NCBI GenBank assembly: GCA_017654935.2
Contig: CM065689.1
Coordinates: 61,349,672-61,413,671 of the forward strand
From: Phymorhynchus buccinoides
Lineage: Eukaryota > Mollusca > Gastropoda > Neogastropoda > Raphitomidae
Direction: 5' to 3'
DNA: 64,000 bases
Shown in pieces: positions 25,090-61,309 of this stretch. Every line of letters begins with the position of its first letter. Position 1 is the stretch's first letter. The position numbers were made by a program, and so were the translations under genes. The notes beneath the pieces are model-generated. The model was not told the DNA's origin. It made no database searches and worked only from the letters and a program-made list of their open reading frames with translations.

Positions 25090-25562
25090 TGCATGTTCGG
25101 AGGGGAATTTTGTTTACTTTTGTTTCTCAGGAACTAATAAAGATATTTACATGAAATTTTGCACACTGATACAATGCATTACTCTGTCCATTTTAAGCCA
25201 ACTTTGAAGACTATGTGATGGCATTAGGAAAGTATGGAGTCCAACTAAAAACAATCCCCTCAACAGCACTGGATTGAAGCACTGCATAGTGATGCTGATC
25301 ATTTGTCCACTTTCCTTAGACATCAAAGAGTGCAACTAACATAAAATTTATCATCTCTGAGTAGCTAACTTGCATTCTTTGTCTCAAGTAAGATCAAGTG
25401 AATTTTCACTATTGTTTGATGAAACAAAGAATGCGGGTTAAGAACTCAGAGATTCTGAATTTTGTGTTACTTGCACTCTTTGATGTCTAAGGAAAGTGGA
25501 CAAATGATCAGCATCACTATGCAGTGCTTCAATCCAGTGCTGTTGAGGGGATAAAACATCAT
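25090..25562. repeat. Foldback element, copy 2, truncated at the 72-bp array
   Basis: Shares CAGGAACTAATAAAGATATT, CTGATCATTTGTCCACTTTC and CAGCACTGGATTGAAGCACT with copy 1 at 1.54-2.19 kb. The left arm is complete, but the right arm stops after GTTGAGGGGATAAAACATCA, where copy 1 continues for about 180 bp. The truncation point is the first base of the 72-bp satellite. Confidence 0.8.
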
Positions 25563-28500
25563 TTCACCATCATCATGCACAACAAACTGAAGACATTAGA
25601 GGAGGGGTGTTAACTTCCCTTATGTCAAATGGACCAGTGTCACCATCATCATGCACAACTGAAGACATTAGAGGAGGGGTGTTAACTTGCCTTATGTCAA
25701 ATGGACCAGTTTCACCATCATCATGCACAACTGAAGACATTAGAGGAGGGGTGTTAACTTCCCTTATGTCAAATGGACCAGTGTCACCATCATCATGCAC
25801 AACTGAAGACATTAGAGGAGGGGTGTTAACTTGCCTTATGTCAAATGGACCAGTTTCACCATCATCATGCACAACTGAAGACATTAGAGGAGGGGTGTTA
25901 ACTACCCTTATGTCAAATGGACCAGTTTCACCATCATCATCCACAACTGAAGACATTAGAGGAGGGGTGTTAACTACCCTTATGTCAAATGGACCAGTGT
26001 CACCATCATCATGCACAACTGAAGACATTAGAGGAGGGGTGTTAACTTGCCTTATGTCAAATGGACCAGTTTCACCATCATCATGCACAACTGAAGACAT
26101 TAGAGGAGGGGTGTTAACTACCCTTATGTCAAATGGACCAGTTTCACCATCATCATGCACAACTGAAGACATTAGAGGAGGGGTGTTAACTTGCGTTATG
26201 TCAAATGGACCAGTTTCACCATCATCATGCACAACTGAAGACATTAGAGGAGGGGTGTTAACTTGCCTTATGTCAAATGGACCAGTTTCACCATCATCAT
26301 GCACAACTGAAGACATTAGAGGAGGGGTGTTAACTTCCCTTATGTCAAATGGACCAGTTTCACCATCATCATGCACAACTGAAGACATTAGAGGAGGGGT
26401 GTTAACTTCCCTTATGTCAAATGGACCAGTTTCACCATCATCATGCACAACTGAAGACATTAGAGGAGGGGTGTTAACTTCCCTTATGTCAAATGGACCA
26501 GTTTCACCATCATCATGCACAACTGAAGACATTAGAGGAGGGGTGTTAACTACCCTTATGTCAAATGGACCAGTTTCACCATCATCATGCACAACTGAAG
26601 ACATTAGAGGAGGGGTGTTAACTTGCCTTATGTCAAATGGACCAGTTTCACCATCATCATGCACAACAAACTGAAGACATTAGAGGAGGGGTGTTAACTT
26701 GCCTTATGTCAAATGGACCAGTTTCACCATCATCATGCACAACAAACTGAAGACATTAGAGGAGGGGTGTTAACTTCCCTTATGTCAAATGGACCAGTTT
26801 CACCATCATCATGCACACAACTGAAGACATTAGAGGAGGGGTGTTAACTTGCCTTATGTCAAATGGACCAGTTTCACCATCATCATGCACAACTGAAGAC
26901 ATTAGAGGAGGGGTGTTAACTACCCTTATGTCAAATGGACCAGTTTCACCATCATCATCCACAACTGAAGACATTAGAGGAGGGGTGTTAACTTGCCTTA
27001 TGTCAAATGGACCAGTTTCACCATCATCATCCACAACTGAAGACATTAGAGGAGGGGTGTTAACTACCCTTATGTCAAATGGACCAGTTTCACCATCATC
27101 ATCCACAACTGAAGACATTAGAGGAGGGGTGTTAACTACCCTTATGTCAAATGGACCAGTTTCACCATCATCATGCACAACTGAAGACATTAGAGGAGGG
27201 GTGTTAACTTCCCTTATGTCAAATGGACCAGTTTCACCATCATCATGCACAACAAACTGAAGACATTAGAGGAGGGGTGTTAACTACCCTTATGTCAAAT
27301 GGACCAGTGTCACCATCATCATGCACAACAAACTGAAGACATTAGAGGAGGGGTGTTAACTACCCTTATGTCAAATGGACGAGTTTCACCATCATCATGC
27401 ACAACTGAAGACATTAGAGGGGTGTTAACTTCCCTTATGTCAAATGGACCAGTTTCACCATCATCATGCACAACAAACTGAAGACAGTAGAGGAGGGGTG
27501 TTAACTACCCTTATGTCAAATGGACCAGTTTCACCATCATCATGCACAACAAACTGAAGACATTAGAGGAGGGGTGTTAACTACCCTTATGTCAAATGGA
27601 CCAGTTTCACCATCATCATGCACAACAAACTGAAGACATTAGAGGAGGGGTGTTAACTTCCCTTATGTCAAATGGACCAGTTTCACCATCATCATGCACA
27701 ACTGAAGACATTAGAGGAGGGGTGTTAACTACCCTTATGTCAAATGGACCAGTTTCACCATCATCATGCACAACAAACTGAAGACATTAGAGGAGGGGTG
27801 TTAACTACCCTTATGTCAAATGGACCAGTGTCACCATCATCATGCACAACTGAAGACATTAGAGGGGTGTTAACTTCCCTTATGTCAAATGGACCAGTTT
27901 CACCATCATCATGCACAACAAACTGAAGACATTAGAGGGGTGTTAACTACCCTTATGTCAAATGGACCAGTTTCACCATCATCATGCACAACAAACTGAA
28001 GACATTAGAGGAGGGGTGTTAACTACCCTTATGTCAAATGGACCAGTTTCACCATCATCATGCACAACAAACTGAAGACATTAGAGGAGGGGTGTTAACT
28101 TCCCTTATGTCAAATGGACCAGTTTCACCATCATCATGCACAACAAACTGAAGACATTAGAGGAGGGGTGTTAACTTGCCTTATGTCAAATGGACCAGTT
28201 TCACCATCATCATGCACAACTGAAGACATTAGAGGAGGGGTGTTAACTACCCTTATGTCAAATGGACCAGTTTCACCATCATCATGCACAACTGAAGACA
28301 TTAGAGGAGGGGTGTTAACTACCCTTATGTCAAATGGACCAGTTTCACCATCATCATGCACAACTGAAGACATTAGAGGAGGGGTGTTAACTTGCCTTAT
28401 GTCAAATGGACCAGTTTCACCATCATCATGCACAACTGAAGACATTAGAGGAGGGGTGTTAACTTGCCTTATGTCAAATGGACCAGTTTCACCATCATCA

Positions 28501-31500
28501 TCCACAACTGAAGACATTAGAGGAGGGGTGTTAACTACCCTTATGTCAAATGGACCAGTTTCACCATCATCATGCACAACTGAAGACATTAGAGGAGGGG
28601 TGTTAACTTGCCTTATGTCAAATGGACCAGTTTCACCATCATCATGCACAACTGAAGACATTAGAGGAGGGGTGTTAACTTGCCTTATGTCAAATGGACC
28701 AGTTTCACCATCATCATGCACAACTGAAGACATTAGAGGAGGGGTGTTAACTTGCCTTATGTCAAATGGACCAGTTTCACCATCATCATGCACAACTGAA
28801 GACATTAGAGGAGGGGTGTTAACTACCCTTATGTCAAATGGACCAGTTTCACCATCATCATGCACAACTGAAGACATTAGAGGAGGGGTGTTAACTTGCC
28901 TTATGTCAAATGGACCAGTTTCACCATCATCATGCACAACTGAAGACATTAGAGGAGGGGTGTTAACTTCCCTTATGTCAAATGGACCAGTTTCACCATC
29001 ATCATGCACAACTGAAGACATTAGAGGAGGGGTGTTAACTACCCTTATGTCAAATGGACCAGTTTCACCATCATCATCCACAACTGAAGACATTAGAGGA
29101 GGGGTGTTAACTTGCCTTATGTCAAATGGACCAGTTTCACCATCATCATGCACAACAAACTGAAGACATTAGAGGAGGGGTGTTAACTTCCCTTATGTCA
29201 AATGGACCAGTTTCACCATCATCATGCACAACAAACTGAAGACATTAGAGGAGGGGTGTTAACTTGCCTTATGTCAAATGGACCAGTTTCACCATCATCA
29301 TGCACAACTGAAGACATTAGAGGAGGGGTGTTAACTTCCCTTATGTCAAATGGACCAGTTTCACCATCATCATGCACAACTGAAGACATTAGAGGAGGGG
29401 TGTTAACTTGCCTTATGTCAAATGGACCAGTTTCACCATCATCATGCACAACTGAAGACATTAGAGGAGGGGTGTTAACTTCCCTTATGTCAAATGGACC
29501 AGTTTCACCATCATCATGCACAACTGAAGACATTAGAGGAGGGGTGTTAACTACCCTTATGTCAAATGGACCAGTTTCACCATCATCATGCACAACTGAA
29601 GACATTAGAGGAGGGGTGTTAACTTCCCTTATGTCAAATGGACCAGTTTCACCATCATCATGCACAACAAACTGAAGACATTAGAGGAGGGGTGTTAACT
29701 ACCCTTATGTCAAATGGACCAGTTTCACCATCATCATGCACAACTGAAGACATTAGAGGGGTGTTAACTTCCCTTATGTCAAATGGACCAGTTTCACCAT
29801 CATCATGCACAACAAACTGAAGACATTAGAGGAGGGGTGTTAACTACCCTTATGTCAAATGGACCAGTTTCACCATCATCATGCACAACAAACTGAAGAC
29901 ATTAGAGGAGGGGTGTTAACTACCCTTATGTCAAATGGACCAGTTTCACCATCATCATGCACAACAAACTGAAGACATTAGAGGAGGGGTGTTAACTACC
30001 CTTATGTCAAATGGACCAGTGTCACCATCATCATGCACAAAACTGAAGACATTAGAGGAGGGGTGTTAACTACCCTTATGTCAAATGGACCAGTGTCACC
30101 ATCATCATGCACAACAAACTGAAGACATTAGAGGAGGGGTGTTAACTACCCTTATGTCAAATGGACCAGTGTCACCATCATCATGCACAACTGAAGACAT
30201 TAGAGGGGTGTTAACTTCCCTTATGTCAAATGGACCAGTTTCACCATCATCATGCACAACAAACTGAAGACATTAGAGGAGGGGTGTTAACTACCCTTAT
30301 GTCAAATGGACCAGTTTCACCATCATCATGCACAACAAACTGAAGACATTAGAGGAGGGGTGTTAACTACCCTTATGTCAAATGGACCAGTTTCACCATC
30401 ATCATGCACAACAAACTGAAGACATTAGAGGAGGGGTGTTAACTACCCTTATGTCAAATGGACCAGTTTCACCATCATCATGCACAACAAACTGAAGACA
30501 TTAGAGGAGGGGTGTTAACTACCCTTATGTCAAATGGACCAGTTTCACCATCATCATGCACAACTGAAGACATTAGAGGAGGGGTGTTAACTTCCCTTAT
30601 GTCAAATGGACCAGTTTCACCATCATCATGCACAACTGAAGACATTAGAGGAGGGGTGTTAACTACCCTTATGTCAAATGGACCAGTTTCACCATCATCA
30701 TGCACAACAACTGAAGACATTAGAGGAGGGGTGTTAACTACCCTTATGTCAAATGGACCAGTTTCACCATCATCATGCACAACTGAAGACATTAGAGGAG
30801 GGGTGTTAACTACCCTTATGTCAAATGGACCAGTTTCACCATCATCATGCACAACTGAAGACATTAGAGGAGGGGTGTTAACTTCCCTTATGTCAAATGG
30901 ACCAGTTTCACCATCATCATGCACAACTGAAGACATTAGAGGAGGGGTGTTAACTTGCCTTATGTCAAATGGACCAGTTTCACCATCATCATGCACAACT
31001 GAAGACATTAGAGGAGGGGTGTTAACTTGCCTTATGTCAAATGGACCAGTTTCACCATCATCATGCACAACTGAAGACATTAGAGGAGGGGTGTTAACTT
31101 GCCTTATGTCAAATGGACCAGTGTCACCATCATCATGCACAACTGAAGACATTAGAGGAGGGGTGTTAACTTGCCTTATGTCAAATGGACCAGTTTCACC
31201 ATCATCATGCACAACTGAAGACATTAGAGGAGGGGTGTTAACTTTCCTTATGTCAAATGGACCAGTTTCACCATCATCATGCACAACTGAAGACATTAGA
31301 GGAGGGGTGTTAACTTGCCTTATGTCAAATGGACCAGTTTCACCATCATCATGCACAACTGAAGACATTAGAGGAGGGGTGTTAACTTCCCTTATGTCAA
31401 ATGGACCAGTGTCACCATCATCATGCACAACTGAAGACATTAGAGGAGGGGTGTTAACTTGCCTTATGTCAAATGGACCAGTTTCACCATCATCATGCAC

Positions 31501-34500
31501 ACAACTGAAGACATTAGAGGAGGGGTGTTAACTTGCCTTATGTCAAATGGACCAGTTTCACCATCATCATGCACAACAAACTGAAGACATTAGAGGAGGG
31601 GTGTTAACTTGCCTTATGTCAAATGGACCAGTTTCACCATCATCATGCACAACAAACTGAAGACATTAGAGGAGGGGTGTTAACTTGCCTTATGTCAAAT
31701 GGACCAGTTTCACCATCATCATGCACAACTGAAGACATTAGAGGAGGGGTGTTAACTTCCCTTATGTCAAATGGACCAGTTTCACCATCATCATGCACAA
31801 CTGAAGACATTAGAGGAGGGGTGTTAACTTGCCTTATGTCAAATGGACCAGTTTCACCATCATCATGCACAACTGAAGACATTAGAGGAGGGGTGTTAAC
31901 TTGCCTTATGTCAAATGGACCAGTTTCACCATCATCATGCACAACTGAAGACATTAGAGGGGTGTTAACTTCCCTTATGTCAAATGGACCAGTTTCACCA
32001 TCATCATGCACAACAAACTGAAGACATTAGAGGAGGGGTGTTAACTTCCCTTATGTCAAATGGACCAGTGTCACCATCATCATGCACAACAAACTGAAGA
32101 CATTAGAGGAGGGGTGTTAACTACCCTTATGTCAAATGGACCAGTTTCACCATCATCATCCACAACTGAAGACATTAGAGGAGGGGTGTTAACTACCCTT
32201 ATGTCAAATGGACCAGTTTCACCATCATCATGCACAACAAACTGAAGACAGTAGAGGAGGGGTGTTAACTACCCTTATGTCAAATGGACCAGTTTCACCA
32301 TCATCATGCACAACAAACTGAAGACATTAGAGGAGGGGTGTTAACTACCCTTATGTCAAATGGACCAGTGTCACCATCATCATGCACAACAAACTGAAGA
32401 CATTAGAGGAGGGGTGTTAACTTCCCTTATGTCAAATGGACCAGTGTCACCATCATCATGCACAACTGAAGACATTAGAGGAGGGGTGTTAACTTCCCTT
32501 ATGTCAAATGGACCAGTGTCACCATCATCATGCACAACAAACTGAAGACATTAGAGGAGGGGTGTTAACTACCCTTATGTCAAATGGACCAGTTTCACCA
32601 TCATCATGCACAACTGAAGACATTAGAGGGGTGTTAACTTCCCTTATGTCAAATGGACCAGTTTCACCATCATCATGCACAACAAACTGAAGACATTAGA
32701 GGGGTGTTAACTACCCTTATGTCAAATGGACCAGTTTCACCATCATCATGCACAACTGAAGACATTAGAGGAGGGGTGTTAACTACCCTTATGTCAAATG
32801 GACCAGTTTCACCATCATCATGCACAACAAACTGAAGACATTAGAGGAGGGGTGTTAACTTCCCTTATGTCAAATGGACCAGTTTCACCATCATCATGCA
32901 CAACAAACTGAAGACATTAGAGGAGGGGTGTTAACTACCCTTATGTCAAATGGACCAGTTTCACCATCATCATGCACAACTGAAGACATTAGAGGAGGGG
33001 TGTTAACTTCCCTTATGTCAAATGGACCAGTTTCACCATCATCATGCACAACTGAAGACATTAGAGGAGGGGTGTTAACTACCCTTATGTCAAATGGACC
33101 AGTTTCACCATCATCATGCACAACTGAAGACATTAGAGGAGGGGTGTTAACTACCCTTATGTCAAATGGACCAGTTTCACCATCATCATGCACAACTGAA
33201 GACATTAGAGGAGGGGTGTTAACTTGCCTTATGTCAAATGAACCAGTTTCACCATCATCATGCACAACTGAAGACATTAGAGGAGGGGTGTTAACTTCCC
33301 TTATGTCAAATGGACCAGTTTCACCATCATCATGCACAACTGAAGACATTAGAGGAGGGGTGTTAACTTCCCTTATGTCAAATGGACCAGTGTCACCATC
33401 ATCATGCACAACTGAAGACATTAGAGGAGGGGTGTTAACTACCCTTATGTCAAATGGACCAGTTTCACCATCATCATCCACAACTGAAGACATTAGAGGA
33501 GGGGTGTTAACTTGCCTTATGTCAAATGGACCAGTTTCACCATCATCATGCACAACTGAAGACATTAGAGGAGGGGTGTTAACTACCCTTATGTCAAATG
33601 GACCAGTTTCACCATCATCATCCACAACTGAAGACATTAGAGGAGGGGTGTTAACTACCCTTATGTCAAATGGACCAGTTTCACCATCATCATCCACAAC
33701 TGAAGACATTAGAGGAGGGGTGTTAACTTGCCTTATGTCAAATGGACCAGTTTCACCATCATCATGCACAACTGAAGACATTAGAGGAGGGGTGTTAACT
33801 TCCCTTATGTCAAATGGACCAGTGTCACCATCATCATGCACAACTGAAGACATTAGAGGAGGGGTGTTAACTTGCCTTATGTCAAATGGACCAGTTTCAC
33901 CATCATCATGCACACAACTGAAGACATTAGAGGAGGGGTGTTAACTTGCCTTATGTCAAATGGACCAGTTTCACCATCATCATGCACAACAAACTGAAGA
34001 CATTAGAGGAGGGGTGTTAACTACCCTTATGTCAAATGGACCAGTTTCACCATCATCATCACACAACTGAAGACATTAGAGGAGGGGTGTTAACTACCCT
34101 TATGTCAAATGGACCAGTTTCACCATCATCATCCACAACTGAAGACATTAGAGGAGGGGTGTTAACTACCCTTATGTCAAATGGACCAGTTTCACCATCA
34201 TCATCCACAACTGAAGACATTAGAGGAGGGGTGTTAACTTGCCTTATGTCAAATGGACCAGTGTCACCATCATCATGCACAACTGAAGACATTAGAGGAG
34301 GGGTGTTAACTACCCTTATGTCAAATGGACCAGTTTCACCATCATCATGCACAACTGAAGACATTAGAGGAGGGGTGTTAACTTCCCTTATGTCAAATGG
34401 ACCAGTGTCACCATCATCATGCACAACAAACTGAAGACATTAGAGGAGGGGTGTTAACTTCCCTTATGTCAAATGGACCAGTGTCACCATCATCATGCAC

Positions 34501-35957
34501 AACAAACTGAAGACATTAGAGGAGGGGTGTTAACTACCCTTATGTCAAATGGACCAGTTTCACCATCATCATGCACAACTGAAGACATTAGAGGAGGGGT
34601 GTTAACTTCCCTTATGTCAAATGGACCAGTTTCACCATCATCATGCACAACAAACTGAAGACAGTAGAGGAGGGGTGTTAACTACCCTTATGTCAAATGG
34701 ACCAGTTTCACCATCATCATGCACAACAAACTGAAGACATTAGAGGAGGGGTGTTAACTACCCTTATGTCAAATGGACCAGTTTCACCATCATCATGCAC
34801 AACAAACTGAAGACATTAGAGGAGGGGTGTTAACTACCCTTATGTCAAATGGACCAGTGTCACCATCATCATGCACAACAAACTGAAGACATTAGAGGAG
34901 GGGTGTTAACTACCCTTATGTCAAATGGACCAGTTTCACCATCATCATGCACAACTGAAGACATTAGAGGAGGGGTGTTAACTACCCTTATGTCAAATGG
35001 ACCAGTTTCACCATCATCATGCACAACAAACTGAAGACATTAGAGGGGTGTTAACTACCCTTATGTCAAATGGACCAGTTTCACCATCATCATGCACAAC
35101 AAACTGAAGACATTAGAGGAGGGGTGTTAACTTCCCTTATGTCAAATGGACCAGTTTCACCATCATCATGCACAACAAACTGAAGACATTAGAGGAGGGG
35201 TGTTAACTTCCCTTATGTCAAATGGACCAGTTTCACCATCATCATGCACAACAAACTGAAGACATTAGAGGAGGGGTGTTAACTTGCCTTATGTCAAATG
35301 AACCAGTTTCACCATCATCATGCACAACAAACTGAAGACATTAGAGGAGGGGTGTTAACTTGCCTTATGTCAAATGGACCAGTTTCACCATCATCATGCA
35401 CAACTGAAGACATTAGAGGAGGGGTGTTAACTACCCTTATGTCAAATGGACCAGTTTCACCATCATCATGCACAACAAACTGAAGACATTAGAGGAGGGG
35501 TGTTAACTTCCCTTAAGTCAAATGGACCAGTTTCACCATCATCATGCACAACAAACTGAAGACATTAGAGGAGGGGTGTTAACTTGCCTTATGTCAAATG
35601 GACCAGTTTCACCATCATCATGCACAACTGAAGACATTAGAGGAGGGGTGTTAACTACCCTTATGTCAAATGGACCAGTTTCACCATCATCATGCACAAC
35701 AAACTGAAGACATTAGAGGAGGGGTGTTAACTACCCTTATGTCAAATGGACCAGTTTCACCATCATCATGCACAACAAACTGAAGACATTAGAGGAGGGG
35801 TGTTAACTACCCTTATGTCAAATGGACCAGTTTCACCATCATCATCCACAACTGAAGACATTAGAGGAGGGGTGTTAACTACCCTTATGTCAAATGGACC
35901 AGTTTCACCATCATCATGCACAACAAACTGAAGACATTAGAGGAGGGGTGTTAATTA
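25563..35957. repeat. 72/76-bp satellite with higher-order structure, about 140 units
   Basis: The core unit contains CTGAAGACATTAGAGGAGGG, GTGTTAACTTCCCTTATGTC and CAAATGGACCAGTTTCACCA. Units come as 72 bp, 76 bp (extra ACAA before CTGAAG) and 68 bp (missing GAGG). A three-state site (ACTTCC, ACTTGC, ACTACC) and smaller variants (GTTTC/GTGTC, ATGCAC/ATCCAC) mark individual units. Runs of 72-bp units keep both strands open and generate frames of about 120-360 codons; 76-bp units end them. The pattern of long, medium and short frames recurs four times at about 2.4-kb spacing, showing a higher-order repeat. Confidence 0.95.
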
Positions 35958-36000: not shown

Positions 36001-36500
36001 NNNNNNNNNNNNNNNNNNNNNNNNNNNNNNNNNNNNNNNNNNNNNNNNNNNNNNNNNNNNNNNNNNNNNNNNNNNNNNNNNNNNNNNNNNNNNNNNNNNN
36101 NNNNNNNNNNNNNNNNNNNNNNNNNNNNNNNNNNNNNNNNNNNNNNNNNNNNNNNNNNNNNNNNNNNNNNNNNNNNNNNNNNNNNNNNNNNNNNNNNNNN
36201 NNNNNNNNNNNNNNNNNNNNNNNNNNNNNNNNNNNNNNNNNNNNNNNNNNNNNNNNNNNNNNNNNNNNNNNNNNNNNNNNNNNNNNNNNNNNNNNNNNNN
36301 NNNNNNNNNNNNNNNNNNNNNNNNNNNNNNNNNNNNNNNNNNNNNNNNNNNNNNNNNNNNNNNNNNNNNNNNNNNNNNNNNNNNNNNNNNNNNNNNNNNN
36401 NNNNNNNNNNNNNNNNNNNNNNNNNNNNNNNNNNNNNNNNNNNNNNNNNNNNNNNNNNNNNNNNNNNNNNNNNNNNNNNNNNNNNNNNNNNNNNNNNNNN
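36001..36500. other. Assembly gap (500 N)
   Basis: A run of exactly 500 N placed shortly after the end of the 72-bp satellite, so its true length is unknown. Translated frames spanning it are meaningless. Confidence 1.
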
Positions 36501-36579
36501 TGGGCCTCAGGCCGGAAACGCAATAAGAAGAAGAATCCTGTGTCCCCAACTCTTTCTTTTCCACTCACTCTTCTTTTTT

Positions 36580-37075
36580 CATGTTGATAGAATTTCTAGT
36601 GTGACCCGGTCTCTCCCCCTCCCCCCTGTTTTCTACTCACTCTTCTTTATTCATTTTGATAGAATTTCTAGTGTGACCCTGTCTCCCCCCCCTCCTCCCT
36701 TTTCCACTCACTCCTGCAGGATCTTGCTGTCGGTGGTCTGGGGGTTCAAGTCAATAGAATCTCTAGCATTACAGACTGTTTTCCACTCACTCCTCTTTAT
36801 TCATGTTGATAGAATCTCTAGCATTACAGACTGTTTTGTTGATAGAATCTCTAGCAGTACAGACTGTTTTCCACTCACTCCTCTTTATTCATGTTGATAG
36901 AATCTCTAGCAGTACAGACTGTTTTCCACTCACTCCTGTTTATTCAAGTTAATAGAATCTCTAGCATTACAGACTGTTTTGTTGATAGAATCTCTAGCAG
37001 TACAGACTGTTTTCCACTCACTCCTCTTTATTCATGTTGATAGAATCTCTAGCATTACAGACAGTTTTCCACTCA
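36580..37075 (-). repeat. 55-bp array built from the exon 3 donor of the AP-1 mu gene
   Basis: Read on the minus strand, each unit contains GGAGTGAGTGGAAAACAGTC followed by TAATGCTAGAGATTCTATCA. The real exon 3 ends ..CTGCAGGA with donor GTGAGTGG, followed by the same intron bases. A copy at about 36703-36745 additionally carries 34 bases of the exon 3 3' end. About nine units, some shortened to about 33 bp. The array occupies the start of intron 3. Confidence 0.85.
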
Positions 37076-37076
37076 C

Positions 37077-37207
37077 TCCTGCAGGATCTTGCTGTCGGTG
37101 GTCTGGGGGTATCCAAAGTCCATCACTTCGTCCAGCAGTTCGTAGATGATGACAAAGTTGTCACGGATGCTCTCCTCCTCCAGCTCCTTGAAATACTCCA
37201 CAAAGAT
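37077..37207 (-). CDS. AP1M1: AP-1 mu coding exon 3
   Basis: 131 bases beginning IFVEYFKELEEESIRDN and ending GYPQTTDSKILQ plus two bases of a Glu codon, followed by a perfect donor GTGAGTGG. The acceptor is ATTGTCTGTGCAG. Its first 24 bases and acceptor are the seed of the 40/44-bp array on one side. Its donor is the seed of the 55-bp array on the other side. Confidence 0.93.
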
Positions 37208-40200
37208 CTGCACAGACAATGTTAGCGCTCCTTGAAATACTCCACAAAGATCTGCACAGACAATGTTAGCGCTCCTTGAAATACTCCACAAAGATATGTA
37301 CAATGTTAACGCTCCTTGAAATACTCCACAAAGATCTGTACAGACAATGTTAACGCTCCTTGAAATACTCCACAAGATCTGTACAGACAATGTTAACGCT
37401 CCTTGAAATACTCCACAAAGATCTGTACAGACAATGTTAACGCTCCTTGAAATACTCCACAAAGATCTGTACAGACAATGTTAGCGCTCCTTGAAATACT
37501 CCACAAGATCTGTACAGACAATGTTAACGCTCCTTGAAATACTCCACAAGATCTGTACAGACAATGTTAACGCTCCTTGAAATACTCCACAAAGATCTGT
37601 ACAAACAATGTTAACTCTCCTTGAAATACTACACAAAGAACTGTACAGACAATGTTAACTCTCCTTGAAATACTCCACAAAGATCTGCACAGACAATGTT
37701 AGCGCTCCTTGAAATACTCCACAAAGATCTGTACAGACAATGTTAGCGCTCCTTGAAATACTCCACAAAGATCTGTACAGACAATGTTAACTCTCCTTGA
37801 AATACTCCACAAAGATCTGTACAGACAATGTTAACGCTCCTTGAAATACTCCACAAAGATCTGTACAGACAATGTTAACGCTCCTTGAAATACTCCACAA
37901 GATCTGTACAAACAATGTTAACGCTCCTTGAAATACTCCACAAAGATCTGTACAATGTTAACGCTCCTTGAAATACTCCACAAAGATCTGTACAATGTTA
38001 ACGCTCCTTGAAATACTCCACAAAGATCTGTACAGACAATGTTAACGCTCCTTGAAATACTCCACAAGATCTGTACAATGTTAACGCTCCTTGAAATACT
38101 CCACAAAGATCTGTACAGACAATGTTAACTCTCCTTGAAATACTCCACAAAGATCTGTACAATGTTAACTCTCCTTGAAATACTCCACAAAGATCTGTAC
38201 AGACAATGTTAACTCTCCTTGAAATACTCCACAAAGATCTGTACAATGTTAACGCTCCTTGAAATACTCCACAAAGATCTGTACAATGTTAACGCTCCTT
38301 GAAATACTCCACAAAGATCTGTACAGACAATGTTAGCGCTCCTTGAAATACTCCACAAAGATATGTACAATGTTAACTCTCCTTGAAATACTCCACAAAG
38401 ATCTGTACAATGTTAACGCTCCTTGAAATACTCCACAAAGATCTGTACAATGTTAACTCTCCTTGAAATACTCCACAAAGATCTGTACAGACAATGTTAA
38501 CGCTCCTTGAAATACTCCACAAAGATCTGTACAATGTTAACGCTCCTTGAAATACTCCACAAAGATCTGTACAATGTTAACTCTCCTTGAAATACTACAC
38601 AAAGAACTGTACAATGTTAACTCTCCTTGAAATACTCCACAAAGATCTGTACAATGTTAACTCTCCTTGAAATACTCCACAAAGATCTGTACAATGTTAA
38701 CGCTCCTTGAAATACTCCACAAAGATCTGTACAATGTTAACTCTCCTTGAAATACTCCACAAAGATCTGTACAGACAATGTTAACTCTCCTTGAAATACT
38801 CCACAAGATCTGTACAGACAATGTTAACTCTCCTTGAAATACTCCACAAAGATCTGTACAATGTTAACTCTCCTTGAAATACTCCACAAAGATCTGTACA
38901 GACAATGTTAACGCTCCTTGAAATACTCCACAAAGATCTGTACAATGTTAACGCTCCTTGAAATACTCCACAAAGATCTGTACAATGTTAACGCTCCTTG
39001 AAATACTCCACAAAGATCTGTACAGACAATGTTAACTCTCCTTGAAATACTCCACAAAGATCTGTACAGACAATGTTAACTCTCCTTGAAATACTCCACA
39101 AAGATCTGTACAATGTTAACTCTCCTTGAAATACTCCACAAAGATATGTACAATGTTAACTCTCCTTGAAATACTCCACAAAGATCTGTACAGACAATGC
39201 TAACGCTCCTTGAAATACTCCACAAAGATCTGTACAATGTCAACTCTCCTTGAAATACTCCACAAAGATCTGTACAATGTTAACTCTCCTTGAAATACTC
39301 CACAAAGATCTGTACAATGTTAACTCTCCTTGAAATACTCCACAAAGATCTGTACAGACAATGTTAACTCTCCTTGAAATACTCCACAAAGATCTGTACA
39401 ATGTTAACTCTCCTTGAAATACTCCACAAAGATCTGTACAATGTTAACGCTCCTTGAAATACTCCACAAAGATCTGTACAATGTTAACGCTCCTTGAAAT
39501 ACTCCACAAAGATCTGTACAATGTTAACGCTCCTTGAAATACTCCACAAAGATCTGTACAATGCTAACGCTCCTTGAAATACTCCACAAAGATCTGTACA
39601 ATGTTAACACTCCTTGAAATACTCCACAAAGATCTGTACAGACAATGTTAACTCTCATTGAAATACTCCAAAAGATCTGTACAGACAATGTTAACTCTCC
39701 TTGAAATACTCCACAAAGATCTGTACAGACAATGTTAACGCTCCTTGAAATACTCCACAAAGATCTGTACAGACAATGTTAACTCTCCTTGAAATACTCC
39801 ACAAAGATCTGTACAATGTTAACACTCCTTGAAATACTCCACAAAGATCTGTACAATGTTAACTCTCCTTGAAATACTCCACAAGATCTGTACAGACAAT
39901 GTTAACTCTCCTTGAAATACTCCACAAAGATCTGTACAATGTTAACTCTCCTTGAAATACTCCACAAGATCTGTACAGACAATGTTAACTCTCCTTGAAA
40001 TACTCCACAAAGATCTGTACAGACAATGTTAACTCTCCTTGAAATACTCCACAAAGATCTGTAGACAAAGATCTGTAGACAATGTTAACTCTCCTTGAAA
40101 TACTCCACAAAGATCTGTACAATGTTAACTCTCCTTGAAATACTCCACAAAGATCTGTACAATGTTAACTCTCCTTGAAATACTCCACAAAGATATGTAC

Positions 40201-43200
40201 AATGTTAACGCTCCTTGAAATACTCCACAAAGATCTGTACAATGTTAACTCTCCTTGAAATACTCCACAAAGATCTGTACAATGTTAACGCTCCTTGAAA
40301 TACTCCACAAAGATCTGTACAATGTTAACTCTCCTTGAAATACTCCACAAAGATCTGTAGAGACAATGTTAACGCTCCTTGAAATACTCCACAAAGATCT
40401 GTACAATGTTAACGCTCCTTGAAATACTCCACAAAGATCTGTACAATGTTAACGCTCCTTGAAATACTCCACAAAGATCTGTACAGACAATGTTAACTCT
40501 CCTTGAAATACTCCACAAAGATCTGTACAGACAATGTTAACGCTCCTTGAAATACTCCACAAAGATCTGTACAATGTTAACTCTCCTTGAAATACTCCAC
40601 AAAGATCTGTACAATGTTAACTCTTCTTGAAATACTCCACAAAGATCTGTACAGACAATATTAACGCTCCTTGAAATACTCCACAAAGATCTGTACAGAC
40701 AATGTTAACTCTCCTTGAAATACTCCACAAAGATCTCTACAATGTTAACTCTCCTTGAAATACTCCACAAAGATCTGTACAATGTTAACGCTCCTTGAAA
40801 TACTCCACAAAGATCTGCACAGACAATGTTAACGCTCCTTGAAATACTCCACAAAGATCTGTACAATGTTAACTCTCCTTGAAATACTCCACAAAGATCT
40901 GTACAATGTTAACTCTCCTTGAAATACTCCACAAAGATCTGTACAATGTTAACTCTCCTTGAAATACTCCACAAAGATCTGTACAGACAATATTAACGCT
41001 CCTTGAAATACTCCACAAAGATCTGTACAGACAATGTTAACTCTCCTTGAAATACTCCACAAAGATCTGTACAGACAATGTTAACGCTCCTTGAAATACT
41101 CCACAAAGATCTGTACAGACAATGTTAACTCTCCTTGAAATACTCCACAAAGATCTGTACAATGTTAACTCTCCTTGAAATACTCCACAAAGATCTGTAC
41201 AATGTTAACTCTCCTTGAAATACTCCACAAAGATCTGTACAATGTTAACGCTCCTTGAAATACTCCACAAAGATCTGTACAATGTTAACTCTCCTTGAAA
41301 TACTCCACAAAGATCTGTACAGACAATGTTAATGCTCCTTGAAATACTCCACAAAGATCTGTACAATGTTAACTCTCCTTGAAATACTCCACAAAGATCT
41401 GTACAATGTTAACTCTCCTTGAAATACTCCACAAAGATCTGTACAATGTTAACGCTCCTTGAAATACTCCACAAAGATCTGTACAGACAATGTTAACTCT
41501 CCTTGAAATACTCCACAAAGATCTGTACAGACAATGTTAACTCTCCTTGAAATACTCCACAAAGATCTGTACAATGTTAATGCTCCTTGAAATACTCCAC
41601 AAAGATCTGTACAGACAATGTTAACTCTCCTTGAAATACTCCACAAAGATCTGTACAGACAATGTTAACTCTCCTTGAAATACTCCACAAAGATCTGTAC
41701 AGACAATGTGAACGCTCCTTGAAATACTCCACAAAGATCTGTACAATGTTAACTCTCCTTGAAATACTCCACAAAGATCTGTACAATGTTAACTCTCCTT
41801 GAAATACTCCACAAAGATCTGTACAATGTTAACTCTCCTTGAAATACTCCACAAAGATCTGTACAATGTTAACGCTCCTTGAAATACTCCACAAAGATCT
41901 GTACAGACAATGTTAACTCTCCTTGAAATACTCCACAAAGATCTGTACAGACAATGTTAACGCTCCTTGAAATACTCCACAAAGATCTGTACAATGTTAA
42001 CTCTCCTTGAAATACTCCACAAAGATCTGTACAAGGTTAACTCTTCTTGAAATACTCCACAAAGATCTGTACAGACAATGTTAACGCTCCTTGAAATACT
42101 CCACAAAGATCTGTACAGACAATGTTAACTCTCCTTGAAATACTCCACAAAGATCTCTACAATGTTAACTCTCCTTGAAATACTCCACAAAGATCTGTAC
42201 AATGTTAACGCTCCTTGAAATACTCCACAAAGATCTGCACAGACAATGTTAACGCTCCTTGAAATACTCCACAAAGATCTGTACAATGTTAACTCTCCTT
42301 GAAATACTCCACAAAGATCTGTACAATGTTAACTCTCCTTGAAATACTCCACAAAGATCTGTACAATGTTAACTCTCCTTGAAATACTCCACAAAGATCG
42401 GTACAGACAATATTAACGCTCCTTGAAATACTCCACAAAGATCTGTACAGACAATGTTAACTCTCCTTGAAATACTCCACAAAGATCTGTACAGACAATG
42501 TTAACGCTCCTTGAAATACTCCACAAAGATCTGTACAGACAATGTTAACTCTCCTTGAAATACTCCACAAAGATCTGTACAATGTTAACTCTCCTTGAAA
42601 TACTCCACAAAGATCTGTACAATGTTAACTCTCCTTGAAATACTCCACAAAGATCTGTACAATGTTAACTCTCCTTGAAATACTCCACAAAGATCTGTAC
42701 AATGTTAACTCTCCTTGAAATACTCCACAAGATCTGTACAGACAATGTTAATGCTCCTTGAAATACTCCACAAAGATCTGTACAATGTTAACGCTCCTTG
42801 AAATACTCCACAAAGATCTGTACAATGTTAACTCTCCTTGAAATACTCCACAAAGATCTGTACAATGTTAACTCTCCTTGAAATACTCCACAAAGATCTG
42901 TACAATGTTAACGCTCCTTGAAATACTCCACAAAGATCTGTACAGACAATGTTAACTCTCCTTGAAATACTCCACAAAGATCTGTACAGACAATGTTAAC
43001 TCTCCTTGAAATACTCCACAAAGATCTGTACAATGTTAACTCTCCTTGAAATACTCCACAAAGATCTGTACAGACAATGTTAACTCTCCTTGAAATACTC
43101 CACAAAGATCTGTACAGACAATGTTAACTCTCCTTGAAATACTCCACAAAGATCTGTACAATGTTAACTCTCCTTGAAATACTCCACAAAGATCTGTACA

Positions 43201-46200
43201 ATGTTAACTCTCCTTGAAATACTCCACAAAGATCTGTACAATGTTAACGCTCCTTGAAATACTCCACAAAGATCTGTACAGACAATGTTAACTCTCCTTG
43301 AAATATTCCACAAGATCTGTACAGACAATGTTAACGCTCCTTGAAATACTCCACAAAGATCTGTACAATGTTAACTCTCCTTGAAATACTCCACAAAGAT
43401 CTGTACAATGTTAACTCTCCTTGAAATACTCCACAAAGATCTGTACAGACAATATTAACGCTCCTTGAAATACTCCACAAAGATCTGTACAGACAATGTT
43501 AACTCTCCTTGAAATACTCCACAAAGATCTCTACAATGTTAACTCTCCTTGAAATACTCCACAAAGATCTGTACAATGTTAACGCTCCTTGAAATACTCC
43601 AAAAAGATCTGCACAGACAATGTTCACGCTCCTTGAAATACTCCACAAAGATCTGTACAATGTTAACTCTCCTTGAAATACTCCACAAAGATCGGTACAG
43701 ACAATGTTAACGCTCCTTGAAATACTCCACAAAGATCTGTACAGACAATGTTAACTCTCCTTGAAATACTCCACAAAGATCTGTACAATGTTAACTCTCC
43801 TTGAAATACTCCACAAAGATCTGTACAATGTTAACTCTCCTTGAAATACTCCACAAAGATCTGTACAATGTTAACGCTCCTTGAAATACTCCACAAAGAT
43901 CTGTACAATGTTAACGCTCCTTGAAATACTCCACAAAGATCTGTACAGACAATGTTAACTCTCCTTGAAATACTCCACAAAGATCTGTACAGACAATGTT
44001 AACTCTCCTTGAAATACTCCACAAAGATCTGTACAATGTTAACGCTCCTTGAAATACTCCACAAAGATCTGTACAGACAATGTTAACTCTCCTTGAAATA
44101 CTCCACAAAGATCTGTACAGACAATGTTAACTCTCCTTGAAATACTCCACAAAGATCTGTACAGACAATGTTAACGCTCCTTGAAATACTCCACAAAGAT
44201 CTGTACAATGTTAACTCTCCTTGAAATACTCCACAAAGATCTGTACAATGTTAACTCTCCTTGAAATACTCCACAAAGATCTGTACAATGTTAACGCTCC
44301 TTGAAATACTCCACAAAGATCTGTACAGACAATGTTAACTCTCCTTGAAATATTCCACAAGATCTGTACAGACAATGTTAACGCTCCTTGAAATACTCCA
44401 CAAAGATCTGTACAATGTTAACTCTCCTTGAAATACTCCACAAAGATCTGTACAATGTTAACTCTCCTTGAAATACTCCACAAAGATCTGTACAATGTTA
44501 ACGCTCCTTGAAATACTCCACAAAGATCTGTACAAGGTTAACTCTCCTTGAAATACTCCACAAAGACTGATCTGCACCAGTGTGTGAGAAAGCCAGACTG
44601 ATGATGATCAGACAGCAGTGATCTCCCCGCACCAGTGTGTGAAGAAAGGCAGACTGATGATGATCAGACAGCACTGATCTCCCCGCACCAGTGTGTGAAG
44701 AAAGGCAGACTGATGATGATCAGACAGCACTGATCTCCCCGCACCAGTGTGTGAAGAAAGGCAGACTGATGATGATCAGACAGCAGTGATCTCCCCGCAC
44801 CAGTGTGTGAAGAAAGGCAGACTGATGATGATCAGACAGCACTGATCTCCCCGCACCAGTGTGTGAAGAAAGGCAGACTGATGATGATCAGACAGCACTG
44901 ATCTCCCCGCACCAGTGTGTGAAGAAAGGCAGACTGATGATGATCAGACAGCAGTGATCTCCCCGCACCAGTGTGTGAAGAAAGGCAGACTGATGATGAT
45001 CAGACAGCAGTGATCTCCCCGCACCAGTGTGTGAAGAAAGGCAGACTGATGATGATCAGACAGCACTGATCTCCCCGCACCAGTGTGTGAAGAAAGGCAG
45101 ACTGATGATGATCAGACAGCACTGATCTCCCCGCACCAGTGTGTGAAGAAAGGCAGACTGATGATGATCAGACAGCACTGATCTCCCCGCACCAGTGTGT
45201 GAAGAAAGGCAGACTGATGATGATCAGACAGCACTGATCTCCCCGCACCAGTGTGTGAAGAAAGGCAGACTGATGATGATCAGACAGCAGTGATCTCCCC
45301 GCACCAGTGTGTGAAGAAAGGCAGACTGATGATGATCAGACAGCACTGATCTCCCTGCACCAGTGTGTGAAGAAAGGCAGACTGATGATGATCAGACAGC
45401 AGTGATCTCCCCGCACCAGTGTGTGAAGAAAGGCAGACTGTGCAGGTCGGGGTTAGTCCCCGGGGACAGCTCTTGCTTGGATACTAAAAAAAAATGGTAT
45501 ATGGTCTGCTTTATAAAAACAAATGTTTTTTAAATAGTTATTGGCCCAGTCTCCTGCCTTTTTTGAAAAAAATCTTCCAAATAATGACCAGTGAAAATTG
45601 AAAACCGGACACATACGTACCTTAACCATTATGGCCATATGACCTGGGAACGCAGAAGAAGAAGTACTTGATGTGCATGAAGGCGATGTTATGATAATAT
45701 TGACATACATTAATAATAAATGTCTACCTGCACCAGCTTGTGAAGGAAGGCAAAGACAATGGCCACGTTGGCGTTCTTCCTGGAGGTGGCCACTAGGTAC
45801 AGGTTGTTGTACTTGATGTACATGAAGGTGGCGTTGCCGTGGGAGATGATGGGGGTCGCGTTGTTCTCGTCCTCCCCCTCCATCACCAATGGCATGAACT
45901 TGTCGATCACCGACATGTCAATGTCGCCGCGGTAGTTCCGGCATATCAACACCTGGGTGAACAACAGTCAACATAATACAGATTTATATGACGTTACATT
46001 TTGATGCATAAATGTGCTGAGGTCGGTTGGTCCAATTGTTGACCTTACTTTTACTGTTTGCTTGCTGTCAACAGGTGAATGACGGGTGGCTGGTTGCTTT
46101 ACTGAAGACATGAAGATGCAGGTTAGACAACAGACCTATATAGATGCACTTCTCAATCAACATTTTTTTAAAGGACGTTTGCATGTTTAAATATAAAAAA

Positions 46201-46439
46201 TTTAAAAAAAACAAAAAAACGCAACAATAAAATACTGTCTAAAGACTTAAAAAAGACACAGCATACAGAACTAAGCAAATGCATACATGAATGATGTCTG
46301 AATCAAGCCACTAAATTAAGAAATGTCTTGTAAATATCCAGAGAATGCTCAGTTCACCTTTCCTTTCACATCCAGGATGTAGACTGCAGAGGCAGACATG
46401 GCAGTGCTGCTCCTTCCTCTCCTCTCCCACACCTGACAC
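37077..46439 (-). CDS. AP1M1: AP-1 complex subunit mu-1, 5' part of the gene (three coding exons)
   Basis: Clathrin adaptor AP-1 medium chain, which recognises tyrosine-based sorting signals on cargo at the trans-Golgi network and endosomes. The joined exons give about 132 residues starting MSASAVYILDVKGK, through LICRNYRGDIDMS and NNLYLVATSRKNANVAIVF, to FVEYFKELEEESIRDN and GYPQTTDSKILQ. This matches the N-terminal longin-like domain of metazoan mu-1, which is about 423 residues in full; mu-2 differs clearly here. All introns have GT-AG ends and phases fit (0, 0, then 2). The cargo-binding C-terminal domain is not in view; exon 4 must lie in the N gap or left of the window, making intron 3 possibly over 36 kb. 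An upstream 5' UTR exon is implied by an acceptor before the ATG exon. Intron 2 (about 8.5 kb) is nearly all tandem repeat. Confidence 0.93.
37208..44565 (-). repeat. 40/44-bp array of exon 3 acceptor plus exon start, about 175 copies
   Basis: On the minus strand each unit reads GTTAACATTGTCTGTACAG then ATCTTTGTGGAGTATTTCAA and GGAG: intron 3' end, AG acceptor, and the first 24 bases of AP-1 mu exon 3. Long units are 44 bp. Short units (40 bp) lack four bases (TCTG) of the polypyrimidine part. Units nearest the true exon share its private features (GCGCT instead of ACGCT, GTGCAG instead of GTACAG), for example at 37210-37290. Minor unit types include CTCTCC for CGCTCC. Short peptides ending IFVEYFKER in translated frames come from this. 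Confidence 0.95.
44566..45440 (-). repeat. 56-bp array resembling the exon 2/donor edge, about 15 copies
   Basis: Units contain GATCTCCCCGCACCAGTGTG and TGAAGAAAGGCAGACTGATG. The plus-strand segment CTCCCCGCACCAGTGTGTGA matches CTACCTGCACCAGCTTGTGA at the exon 2 3' end (45725-45744); over 29 aligned positions 24 agree. One unit near 45353 has CCTGCACC like the exon. The array lies inside intron 2, between the 40/44-bp array and exon 2. Confidence 0.8.
45441..45727 (-). other. Unique 5' part of intron 2
   Basis: Ordinary AT-rich intron sequence between exon 2 and the 56-bp array. A short frame in it has no recognised domain. Confidence 0.6.
45728..45952 (-). CDS. AP1M1: AP-1 mu coding exon 2
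   Basis: 225 bases, exactly 75 codons, acceptor TTGTTCACCCAG and donor GTAGACA. Encodes VLICRNYRGDIDMS through EDENNATPIISHGNATFMY, YNNLYLVATSRKNANVA and FAFLHKLVQ, colinear with vertebrate mu-1 residues about 15-89. Intron 1 (45953-46357, 405 bp) is ordinary unique sequence, the only intron here without an array. Confidence 0.93.
46358..46439 (-). CDS. AP1M1: AP-1 mu exon with start codon (CDS 46358-46399, 5' UTR 46400-46439)
   Basis: ATG at 46399-46397 in a GCACTGCCATGT context opens MSASAVYILDVKGK (42 bases), ending at donor GTGAAC (46357 down). Immediately upstream are 40 bases of UTR and a strong acceptor, the pyrimidine-rich TTGTTGTTCTTCCTGTTGCAG-type tract with its AG at 46440-46441. 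The exon therefore starts with GTGTCAGG at 46439. The acceptor and UTR bases are the template unit of the 70-bp array upstream. Confidence 0.88.
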
Positions 46440-48712
46440 CTGCAACAGGAAGAACAACAAGTGAAAACTGACAGTGCTGCTCCTTCCCCTCTCACACCTG
46501 ACACCTGCAACAGGAAGAACAACAAGTGAAAACTGACAGTGCTGCTCCTTCCTCTCCTCTCCCACACCTGACACCTGCAACAGGAAGAACAACAAGTGAA
46601 AACTGACAGTGCTGCTCCTTCCCCTCTCACACCTGACACCTGCAACAGGAAGAACAACAAGTGAAAACTGACAGTGCTGCTCCTTCCTCTCCTCTCCCAC
46701 ACCTGACACCTGCAACAGGAAGAACAACAAGTGAAAACTGACAGTGCTGCTCCTTCCTCTCCCCTCCCACACCTGACACCTGCAACAGGAAGAACAACAA
46801 GTGAAAACTGACAGTGCTGCTCCTTCCTCTCCTCTCCCACACCTGACACCTGCAACAGGAAGAACAACAAGTGAAAACTGACAGTGCTGCTCCTTCCTCT
46901 CCTCTCCCACACCTGACACCTGCAACAGGAAGAACAACAAGTGAAAACTGACAGTGCTGCTCCTTCCCCTCTCACACCTGACACCTGCAACAGGAAGAAC
47001 AACAAGTGAAAACTGACAGTGCTGCTCCTTCCCCTCTCACACCTCCCACCTGCAACAGGAAGAACAACAAGTGAAAACTGACAGTGCTGCTCCTTCCTCT
47101 CCCACACCTCACACCTGCAACAGGAAGAACAACAAGTGAAAACTGACAGTGCTGCTCCTTCCTCTCCTCTCCCACACCTCCCACCTGCAACAGGAAGAAC
47201 AACAAGTGAAAACTGACAGTGCTGCTCCTTCCTCTCCCACACCTCACACCTGCAACAGGAAGAACAACAAGTGAAAACTGACAGTGCTGCTCCTTCCTCT
47301 CCTCTCCCACACCTCACACCTGCAACAGGAAGAACAACAAGTGAAAACTGACAGTGCTGCTCCTTCCTCTCCTCTCCCACACCTCACACCTGCAACAGGA
47401 AGAACAACAAGTGAAAACTGACAGTGCTGCTCCTTCCTCTCCCCTCCCACACCTCACACCTGCAACAGGAAGAACAACAAGTGAAAACTGACAGTGCTGC
47501 TCCTTCCCCTCCCACACCTGACACCTGCAACAGGAAGAACAACAAGTGAAAACTGACAGTGCTGCTCCTTCCCCTCTCACACCTGACACCTGCAACAGGA
47601 AGAACAACAAGTGAAAACTGACAGTGCTGCTCCTTCCTCTCCCCTCCCACACCTCCCACCTGCAACAGGAAGAACAACAAGTGAAAACTGACAGTGCTGC
47701 TCCTTCCTCTCCCCTCCCACACCTCCCACCTGCAACAGGAAGAACAACAAGTGAAAACTGACAGTGCTGCTCCTTCCTCTCCCCTCCCACACCTCACACC
47801 TGCAACAGGAAGAACAACAAGTGAAAACTGACAGTGCTGCTCCTTCCTCTCCCCTCCCACACCTCACACCTGCAACAGGAAGAACAACAAGTGAAAACTG
47901 ACAGTGCTGCTCCTTCCTCTCCCCTCCCACACCTGACACCTGCAACAGGAAGAACAACAAGTGAAAACTGACAGTGCTGCTCCTTCCTCTCCCCTCTCAC
48001 ACCTCCCACCTGCAACAGGAAGAACAACAAGTGAAAACTGACAGTGCTGCTCCTTCCTCTCCCCTCCCACACCTCCCACCTGCAACAGGAAGAACAACAA
48101 GTGAAAACTGACAGTGCTGCTCCTTCCTCTCCCACACCTCACACCTGCAACAGGAAGAACAACAAGTGAAAACTGACAGTGCTGCTCCTTCCTCTCCTCT
48201 CCCACACCTCACACCTGCAACAGGAAGAACAACAAGTGAAAACTGACAGTGCTGCTCCTTCCTCTCCCCTCTCACACCTCCCACCTGCAACAGGAAGAAC
48301 AACAAGTGAAAACTGACAGTGCTGCTCCTTCCTCTCCCCTCTCACACCTCCCACCTGCAACAGGAAGAACAACAAGTGAAAACTGACAGTGCTGCTCCTT
48401 CCTCTCCCCTCTCACACCTCCCACCTGCAACAGGAAGAACAACAAGTGAAAACTGACAGTGCTGCTCCTTCCTCTCCTCTCCCACACCTCACACCTGCAA
48501 CAGGAAGAACAACAAGTGAAAACTGACAGTGCTGCTCCTTCCTCTCCCACACCTCACACCTGCAACAGGAAGAACAACAAGTGAAAACTGACAGTGCTGC
48601 TCCTTCCTCTCCCACACCTCACACCTGCAACAGGAAGAACAACAAGTGAAAACTGACAGTGCTGCTCCTTCCTCTCCCCTCCCACACCTCCCACCTGCAA
48701 CACGTAGAAAAA
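46440..48712 (-). repeat. 70-bp array of the AP-1 mu ATG-exon acceptor and 5' UTR start, about 33 copies
   Basis: On the minus strand each unit contains CACTTGTTGTTCTTCCTGTT, GCAG, then a UTR-like GTGTCAGGTGTGGGAGAGG and GAAGGAGCAGCACTG. The bases flanking the real ATG exon are the same sequence. Variants affect TGTCAGG/TGTGAGG/TGGGAGG and the number of GGAGA repeats, so units are 60-70 bp. The unit furthest from the exon (about 48690-48722) is strongly diverged. Overlapping minus-strand frames of 60-343 codons are artefacts. Confidence 0.95.
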
Positions 48713-56960: not shown

Positions 56961-57164
56961 TTACACACACACATAGTCACAGTGACATACTGCTTTGGGA
57001 GTATGTGTGTGCGTAAGCATGCGTGTGCATGGGAGAAGGGGCATAGGCCCATGATAGGGTGACTGTTCAAATGTTATTATGCACAGCTAATTATAAAAAT
57101 ATAACGATGATGATTATGGCCCATAATTATAATAAAATTATAGGCAAAATCATTCAATATAATA

Positions 57165-60340: not shown

Positions 60341-60439
60341 GACTATTATGTCGCTGTAAATATTTGGGAGGATCTACGTGAATGCGCAAGACAGCAAATT
60401 ATCAAGAAGAAGAAAGTGGACAGGAGAAAAAGAAGAAAT

Positions 60440-61141
60440 ATATAGAAAGCTTGGCCCAGCCAGGCAGGTCCCGCTAATCGGTCCCTAACATGATGCTGCG
60501 CCAAGCGAGAGAATGACCCAGCCAGCCAGGTCCCGCTAATCGGGGCCCCAACGTGATGCCGCGTCATGGAGGTCACACTTGACGTATTCCTGAAGCGGCG
60601 CAGGGCAAATCTTGCAGCTCTCCTCTGGACCGCTTCGATTTTGTCGTCTTGCTGTTGGTGAGGGTCCCACACTGTGGAGGCGTATTCCAATATGGGACGC
60701 ACAAATGCCTTGTAGGCTCTTTCCCCGATGGTCTGCCAGGGAACTGATCTTAAGGCTTCTTCTCAAAAACCTGAGAGTCTTGTTGGCCTTTGAGCAGACG
60801 TGCTGGATATGTTTTTTCCAGCTCAGATCTTTACAGATGGTAACTCCCAGGTATTTTGCGGAGTCCACCGTTTCGAGCAAGTGGCCATGGAGCGTGTACC
60901 TGCTTTCCTGCGTCTGTCTTCTTCTGGTAACAGGTAAGGTGGTGCATTTGTCAGGATGAAATGCCATGTCCCAGCTCTTCTCCCACTCAGCAAGCTGATG
61001 GAGGTCATGCTGTAGCTGATCATGGTCCTGAGGCGCCGCTACCACTCTATACACTGCAGTGTCGTCAGCAAAGAGACGGGTTGGTGATGTCACCTTGTCT
61101 GGCACTGGCAGGTCATTGATGTATGCCAGGAAGAGGCATAT
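60440..61141 (-). pseudogene. LINE reverse transcriptase fragment, minus strand, frameshifted
   Basis: Minus-strand translation from 61141 gives LFLAYINDLPVPDK, then motif C in RLFADDTAVYR (61050-61078), WDMAFHPDKCTTLPVTRR, TVDSAKYLGVTICKDLSW and RFLRRSLKISSLADH. A frameshift near 60730 moves to another frame with RPILEYASTVWDPHQQQ, DKIEAVQRRAARFALRRF and RNTSSVTSM. The fragment lacks motifs upstream of LYINDLP and the protein C-terminus. After RNTSSVTSM a segment of about 70 bp containing AGCGGGACCTGGCTGG is duplicated. Related to, but distinct from, the plus-strand copy at 57-59 kb. Confidence 0.8.
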
Positions 61142-61309
61142 ATAGTCTTTGATGGTAGGTACTAGGTAGGTAGGTAGGGACAGGCTTTCATAGCCATAGG
61201 CCTCGCAGCCTATATAACGTCCCCTCTTTGAATGAGTACTTTTAAGAATTATTTGTTTGTTTGTTGGTCTGGCTGCACACCTATAAATAATAATGTTCAA
61301 TACTATCCA

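Follow-up and report, generated by a model that had tools for sequence, protein, structure and literature searches.

Tandem arrays templated on splice junctions of an AP-1 mu gene and of other genes in the gastropod Phymorhynchus buccinoides

The AP-1 mu gene considered here lies on the minus strand of a 64,000-nucleotide stretch of the gastropod Phymorhynchus buccinoides (hereafter the window; G000:C10:61349672-61413671), and tandem arrays carry copies of its exon edges. The genome measures 2.12 Gb, and the window lies on a 62.5-Mb contig, about 1.1 Mb short of its end. All results derive from the DNA sequence of one genome assembly. The window contains exons 1-3, whose 133-aa product gives a full-length match to AP-1 mu-1 (E 1.5e-65); a Pfam search with the short exon pieces matched no family. 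Arrays were detected with Tandem Repeats Finder (TRF), and their units were then parsed and counted. The features of this part of the window are as follows.

36001..36500, no strand: 500-N scaffold gap
36556..37081, minus strand: composite array at the exon 3 donor, 55/88/143-bp plus 72-bp units (TRF)
36556-36713, minus strand: 72-bp array (TRF)
36712..36745, minus strand: additional copy of the 34 nt that end exon 3, within the donor array
36754-37081, minus strand: 143-bp (55/88) array (TRF)
37077..37207, minus strand: AP-1 mu exon 3 (131 nt)
37184-44566, minus strand: 40/44-bp array, 177 units parsed, carrying the exon 3 acceptor and the 24 exonic nt that follow it (TRF)
44574-45440, minus strand: 56-bp array of 15.5 copies, resembling the exon 2 donor edge in degenerate form (TRF, shuffles)
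45728..45952, minus strand: AP-1 mu exon 2 (225 nt), neither edge with an array
46358..46399, minus strand: AP-1 mu exon 1, coding portion (MSASAVYILDVKGK)
46439(?)-46358, minus strand: exon 1 of AP-1 mu, ATG at 46399, 5' edge putative
46402-48709, minus strand: 70-bp array, 33.8 copies, with a polypyrimidine-TTGCAG|G acceptor in its units (TRF)

Across AP-1 mu, array units include a junction plus 5 to ~45 nt of exon. The true junction is the copy that adjoins the intact exon, which is the last copy in acceptor arrays and the first in donor arrays. The original prediction placed three arrays on splice junctions, and this is borne out: the acceptor and the donor of exon 3 are both crossed, and so is the putative acceptor of the ATG exon. 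The array at the exon 3 acceptor spans 7.4 kb and has CAG|ATC intact in 165 of its 177 units. At the donor of the same exon, the unit comprises 5 nt of exon followed by GTGAGTGG (junction GA|GTGAGTGG), and the array contains 8 copies of GAGTGAGT. The 70-bp array, with TTGCAGG in 34 copies, covers the 38 nt of 5' untranslated sequence between the putative acceptor AG and the ATG and ends 3 bp before the latter; a polypyrimidine-AG is likewise found ~34 nt ahead of the ATG in a paralog of the gene (C2, see below). The fourth array, of 56 bp, had been attributed to the donor edge of exon 2. The likeness stands, with 20 of 23 aligned positions matching the end of exon 2 and none of 2000 shuffled units as good, but the donor itself is lost: GT has changed to GG and GGTGCAGGT is retained in 0 of the 15 counted units. 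This array is displaced by ~290 bp into intron 2 and does not touch the true exon 2 donor.

Exons 4-8 were located outside the window, in another copy of the locus present in the assembly, termed copy A (C10:61.96-62.00 Mb), which is 99.2% identical to the window over 2.5 kb of flanking DNA and contains exons 1-8 in open frame. Sequence was read, partly masked and ~300 kb in total, from three places: C10:61936000-62099999, the DNA to the left of the window, and the region of the C2 paralog. Exons 9 and 10 of copy A did not turn up in it. Since no exon from 4 onward was found left of the gap within the window (1-36000) and exons 4-8 lie elsewhere (C10:61958635-61985224), the possibility that the arrays at 1-36000 belong to later AP-1 mu introns was rejected, and these arrays are excluded from the junction counts. 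The join at the gap 36001-36500 is doubtful. Near the end of the contig, the AP-1 mu locus occurs several times, as copy A and as partial, inverted and indel-rich copies, some separated by 500-N gaps. These repeated copies look like unmerged haplotype contigs. Between the two assembled copies, which may be alleles or duplicates, array copy number is equal for the 70-bp array (33.8) and differs for the 56-bp array (15.5 versus 16.1) and a 45-bp array (120 versus 103).

The junctions of copy A were surveyed by laying a 45-nt probe over each of the 16 and seeking extra junction-crossing copies within 6 kb. Such copies are present at 10 of the 16 junctions, one of them weak. Both junction types are affected: the acceptors of exons 1 (if real; 33 extra copies), 3 (142), 4 (6) and 7 (1), and the donors of exons 3 (2), 5 (5), 6 (2), 7 (74) and 8 (10); the weak case is the donor of exon 2 (1). 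At the acceptor of exon 5, a 49-bp array (90 matches) abuts the junction and remains intronic. The templating of arrays on exon-intron boundaries, proposed from the window, thus extends to exons 4-8 of copy A, and it also extends to other genes. Of 17 junctions in C2, an old AP-1 mu paralog on another chromosome, two have junction-crossing copies, and both belong to exon 4. Eighteen probes were run on C2, from which the stop-codon end of exon 10 was omitted as a non-junction; the probes for the acceptors of exons 1 and 10 were 1-2 nt out of register, and the two junctions of exon 7, which was not found in C2, stand outside the count. The array at the exon 4 acceptor has an 86-bp unit in copy A and 94/81-bp units in C2, and the unit ends differ by eye, so that the two arrays look independent in origin.

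For a sample from other genes, a Pfam search for the myosin head gave 68 exon matches, of which 20, all among the best 35, were picked before their sequence was seen and taken with 180 bp on each side. Direct alignment with a relaxed complexity filter found a tandem copy running across 9 of 40 myosin junctions, in 8 of the 20 loci, some of which may be paralogs. The nine exclude L036, where the copy stops 7 nt inside the intron, and L052, which is weak. Other detection gave 10/40 by BLAST and 7/40 by a first direct alignment with an over-strict complexity filter. The filter was relaxed after known cases were seen to be missed, and the controls were re-run with it, which raised them from 14 to 24 of 800 points outside the gene in the C2 region and from 26 to 28 of 800 points in C2 introns away from the exon 4 array. 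The myosin frequency is above both (Fisher P 8e-6 and 2e-5, respectively). The genome has 19 matches to PF14830, the haemocyanin beta-sandwich family. This domain is molluscan and points to a mollusc as the probable host; none of 14 control genomes matches it, but since the myosin head has no match in them either, they do not serve as a control. Haemocyanin was scored in two of three loci fetched, and one of the four scored junctions is crossed, namely the acceptor of L054, by an 88-bp unit that BLAST missed and TRF shows. Outside C10, 12 of 61 junctions are crossed in total. The fetched locus L055, with undefined edges, is in no count.

Tandem arrays of this kind are known from amphioxus as mirages, for which Canestro 2002 is said to be the founding paper. 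The original prediction had held that no class of repeats so defined was described. This is wrong: in the available text of PMC3087553 and PMC3902484, amphioxus mirages are just such arrays, minisatellite-like tandem copies of intron-exon boundaries, either donors or acceptors, with splice signals often intact and copy number variable. They are known there at Adh3, the globins BflGb6 and BflGb9, troponin C (TnC) and PGBD5, in low copy number (BflGb6 has 6 and 3 units) and at one or two junctions per described gene. Traits used to define them also include length instability between haplotypes, somatic instability and undisturbed mRNA splicing. As in amphioxus, the units found here span the exon-intron boundary, combining an intron part with an exon part, and both 5' and 3' boundaries are affected. 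We consider it very probable that the arrays described here are mirages, that is, minisatellites derived from a short junction-spanning tandem duplication that later grew into the intron. The founding event would be a replication or repair error duplicating a segment of about 40-180 bp across a splice junction, and the array would then expand into the intron via unequal exchange or slippage. Selection would purge duplications inside coding sequence and tolerate junction-spanning ones, because their extra copies land on the intron side; there they would be neutral, because exon definition would direct splicing to the site adjoining the intact exon.

The gene has been maintained alongside its arrays. 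Copy A and C2 are identical at 298 of 324 amino acids (exons 1-6 and 8), and their dN/dS of 0.062 indicates that AP-1 mu is under strong purifying selection; intron positions are equal in the two copies for the same exons. Low dN/dS together with high identity argues that the arrays have not kept the gene from being retained. Given this selection and the open frame of exons 1-8 in copy A, splicing presumably copes with the arrays. Within the 40/44-bp array, exonic columns are less variable than intronic ones (8 changes in 24 columns versus 26 in 12; 156 units, one two-state column omitted, shared descent of the units uncorrected). Selection against cryptic acceptors along this array was considered and set aside, as no clear gradient was seen past the nearest units.

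The original prediction further proposed that junctions are preferred start points for tandem duplication. In simulations of seeding, every TRF array was represented by a single unit, which was assigned a random position in the collapsed gene (20000 runs). In copy A, arrays cover or touch (within 3 bp) 8 of the 16 junctions versus 1.57 expected, and none of the 20000 runs was as high (P<5e-5). Under assumed intron sizes at seeding, the probability of 8 or more is 0.007 for 500-bp introns and 0.0002 or less for 800 and 1500 bp. Copy A and the myosin junctions (9/40 versus 24/800 and 28/800) thus favor the proposal, short of a genome-wide proof, and it is likely that junctions are hit more often than deep-intron sites. 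To the broader reading, that junctions are genome-wide hot spots of tandem duplication in this molluscan lineage, with about one junction in five carrying its own copies and paralogs reseeded independently, we give an even chance.

Several observations weigh against a preference for junctions. By the junction probe, 5 of the 16 junctions of copy A (E1d, E2a, E4d, E6a and E8a, where a is acceptor and d donor) have no extra copy. The paralogs differ, 10/16 in copy A versus 2/17 in C2 (P 0.004), so that the repeat-rich region does matter. The simulation for C2 by itself is not above chance (2 observed versus 0.69 expected, P 0.15), and for copy A the probability of 8 or more rises to 0.09 with 300-bp introns at seeding and to 0.37 with 200-bp introns. 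The control points for myosin come from one locus, C2; when all C2 introns are taken, including the exon 4 mirage, 125 of 800 points are covered and the myosin excess is not significant (P 0.17). The coverage profile around myosin junctions is flat (12/40 at -150, 12/40 at 0 and 10/40 at +60), so that short windows cannot tell junction preference from repeat-rich introns.

These points leave a tentative but serious place for random seeding, under which arrays are dense in this region, those at exon edges are the ones noticed, and junction-spanning copies are tolerated like intronic ones with no preference involved. The window is indeed 69% array (25 array clusters, 43,942 of 64,000 bases; periods of 10 or more, with di- and trinucleotide arrays left out), and 7 of 16 junctions would be expected to be covered if introns were 200 bp at seeding. 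When only the window is considered, 3 of 6 junctions are covered (P 0.12; five arrays within 1511 collapsed bases, random-point coverage 0.216), and the window data by themselves do not prove non-random seeding. The flat myosin profile and the C2 simulation also agree with random placement. Against it stand the 8 of 16 junctions of copy A, far above the expectation from present non-array DNA; the C2 introns, today 0.9-2.7 kb, which are a guide to ancestral size and for which the probability of 8 or more is 0.0002 or less, as obtained for 800 and 1500 bp; and the myosin junctions in comparison with intronic points outside the exon 4 mirage (28/800).

An assembly artefact, in which noisy or collapsed reads would have made the arrays or duplicated the locus, is unlikely. 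That several copies lie close to the C10 terminus, some of them separated by 500-N gaps and one rich in indels, would fit it, but copies assembled separately share the same units, like structures are found on other chromosomes, and the units carry base variants among themselves. Less probable still is a functional duplication of exons, with the units serving as alternative or mutually exclusive mini-exons or as recursive splice sites. Splice signals are intact in many units, as this would have it (165/177 CAG|ATC, 34 TTGCAGG and 8 GAGTGAGT), yet each unit holds one exon edge only, the 56-bp array keeps the donor in 0 of 15 units, unit lengths (40/44, 55, 70, 80 and 86) do not follow multiples of three, and normal mRNA is described for amphioxus mirages in the available text. 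Finally, the remnant of an inserted cDNA-like sequence with exon 2 spliced to exon 3, suggested by the likeness of the window near 44575 to the end of exon 2 joined to the start of exon 3, was rejected as having a negligible chance, since the join is missing there in copies A and B and resembles a deletion variant of the window copy.

Taken as mirages, the molluscan arrays depart from those described in the available amphioxus text in their host, in their size (up to 177 units and 7.4 kb), in reaching 10 of the 16 junctions in a single gene copy, and in their occurrence in further genes. Junction-seeded arrays are far larger here than in amphioxus and seem common in this genome. Related processes have been described elsewhere. 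According to the accessible part of the source, a boundary-crossing duplication made an intron in potato RdRp; such intron gain resembles the present case in that a tandem duplication across an intron-exon boundary copies splice signals, and differs from it in that no new intron is seen here, the boundaries of copy A and C2 agreeing for exons 1-6 and 8. Human segmentally duplicated genes have variable internal tandem repeats, and minisatellites at an exon-intron boundary, as found here, can alter gene structure; unlike the present arrays, half of these repeats lie in coding sequence of recent paralogs, and the available text defines no class by junctions (PMC2812944). The intron repeats reported in the accessible part of a cone snail gene-structure paper are simple repeats only. 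A literature search, with most subscription papers outside its coverage, returned no junction-defined arrays outside cephalochordates. As far as these searches show, the molluscan host, the 177-unit array and the involvement of most junctions of one gene copy are new.

Described so far from a few amphioxus genes, the class appears here in another phylum and in several genes. One proposal on mirages sees in them a route to new introns, and how frequently arrays become new introns can now be tested, as can the fragility of splice junctions as sites of tandem duplication and the choice of the spliceosome among up to 177 near-identical acceptors. If junctions are hot spots genome-wide, they would be a source of minisatellites and offer a natural test of splice choice among more than 100 copies.

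Other repeats were observed beside these subjects. One myosin exon, L044 (G000:C14:59943396-59943932), lies ~20 kb from a contig end; a 47-bp array ends 9 nt before its acceptor and a 37-bp array begins ~19 nt after its donor, neither junction being crossed. Two very long arrays of the window fall outside all recognised exons: a 72-bp unit in 141.7 copies at 25562-35954, where open reading frame (ORF) starts hint by eye at a ~2.4 kb higher-order period, and a 25/50-bp unit in ~147 copies of 50 at 16539-23860. At 58724-59273, 46/76-bp tandem copies start within the 3' part of a reverse-transcriptase-like ORF, so that tandem duplication strikes the coding sequence of mobile elements too. Reverse transcriptase ORF fragments are present at 57047-58827 (RVT_1, E 3.1e-12 for 57047-58222) and, judged by eye, at 60346-61309 and 61758-62353.

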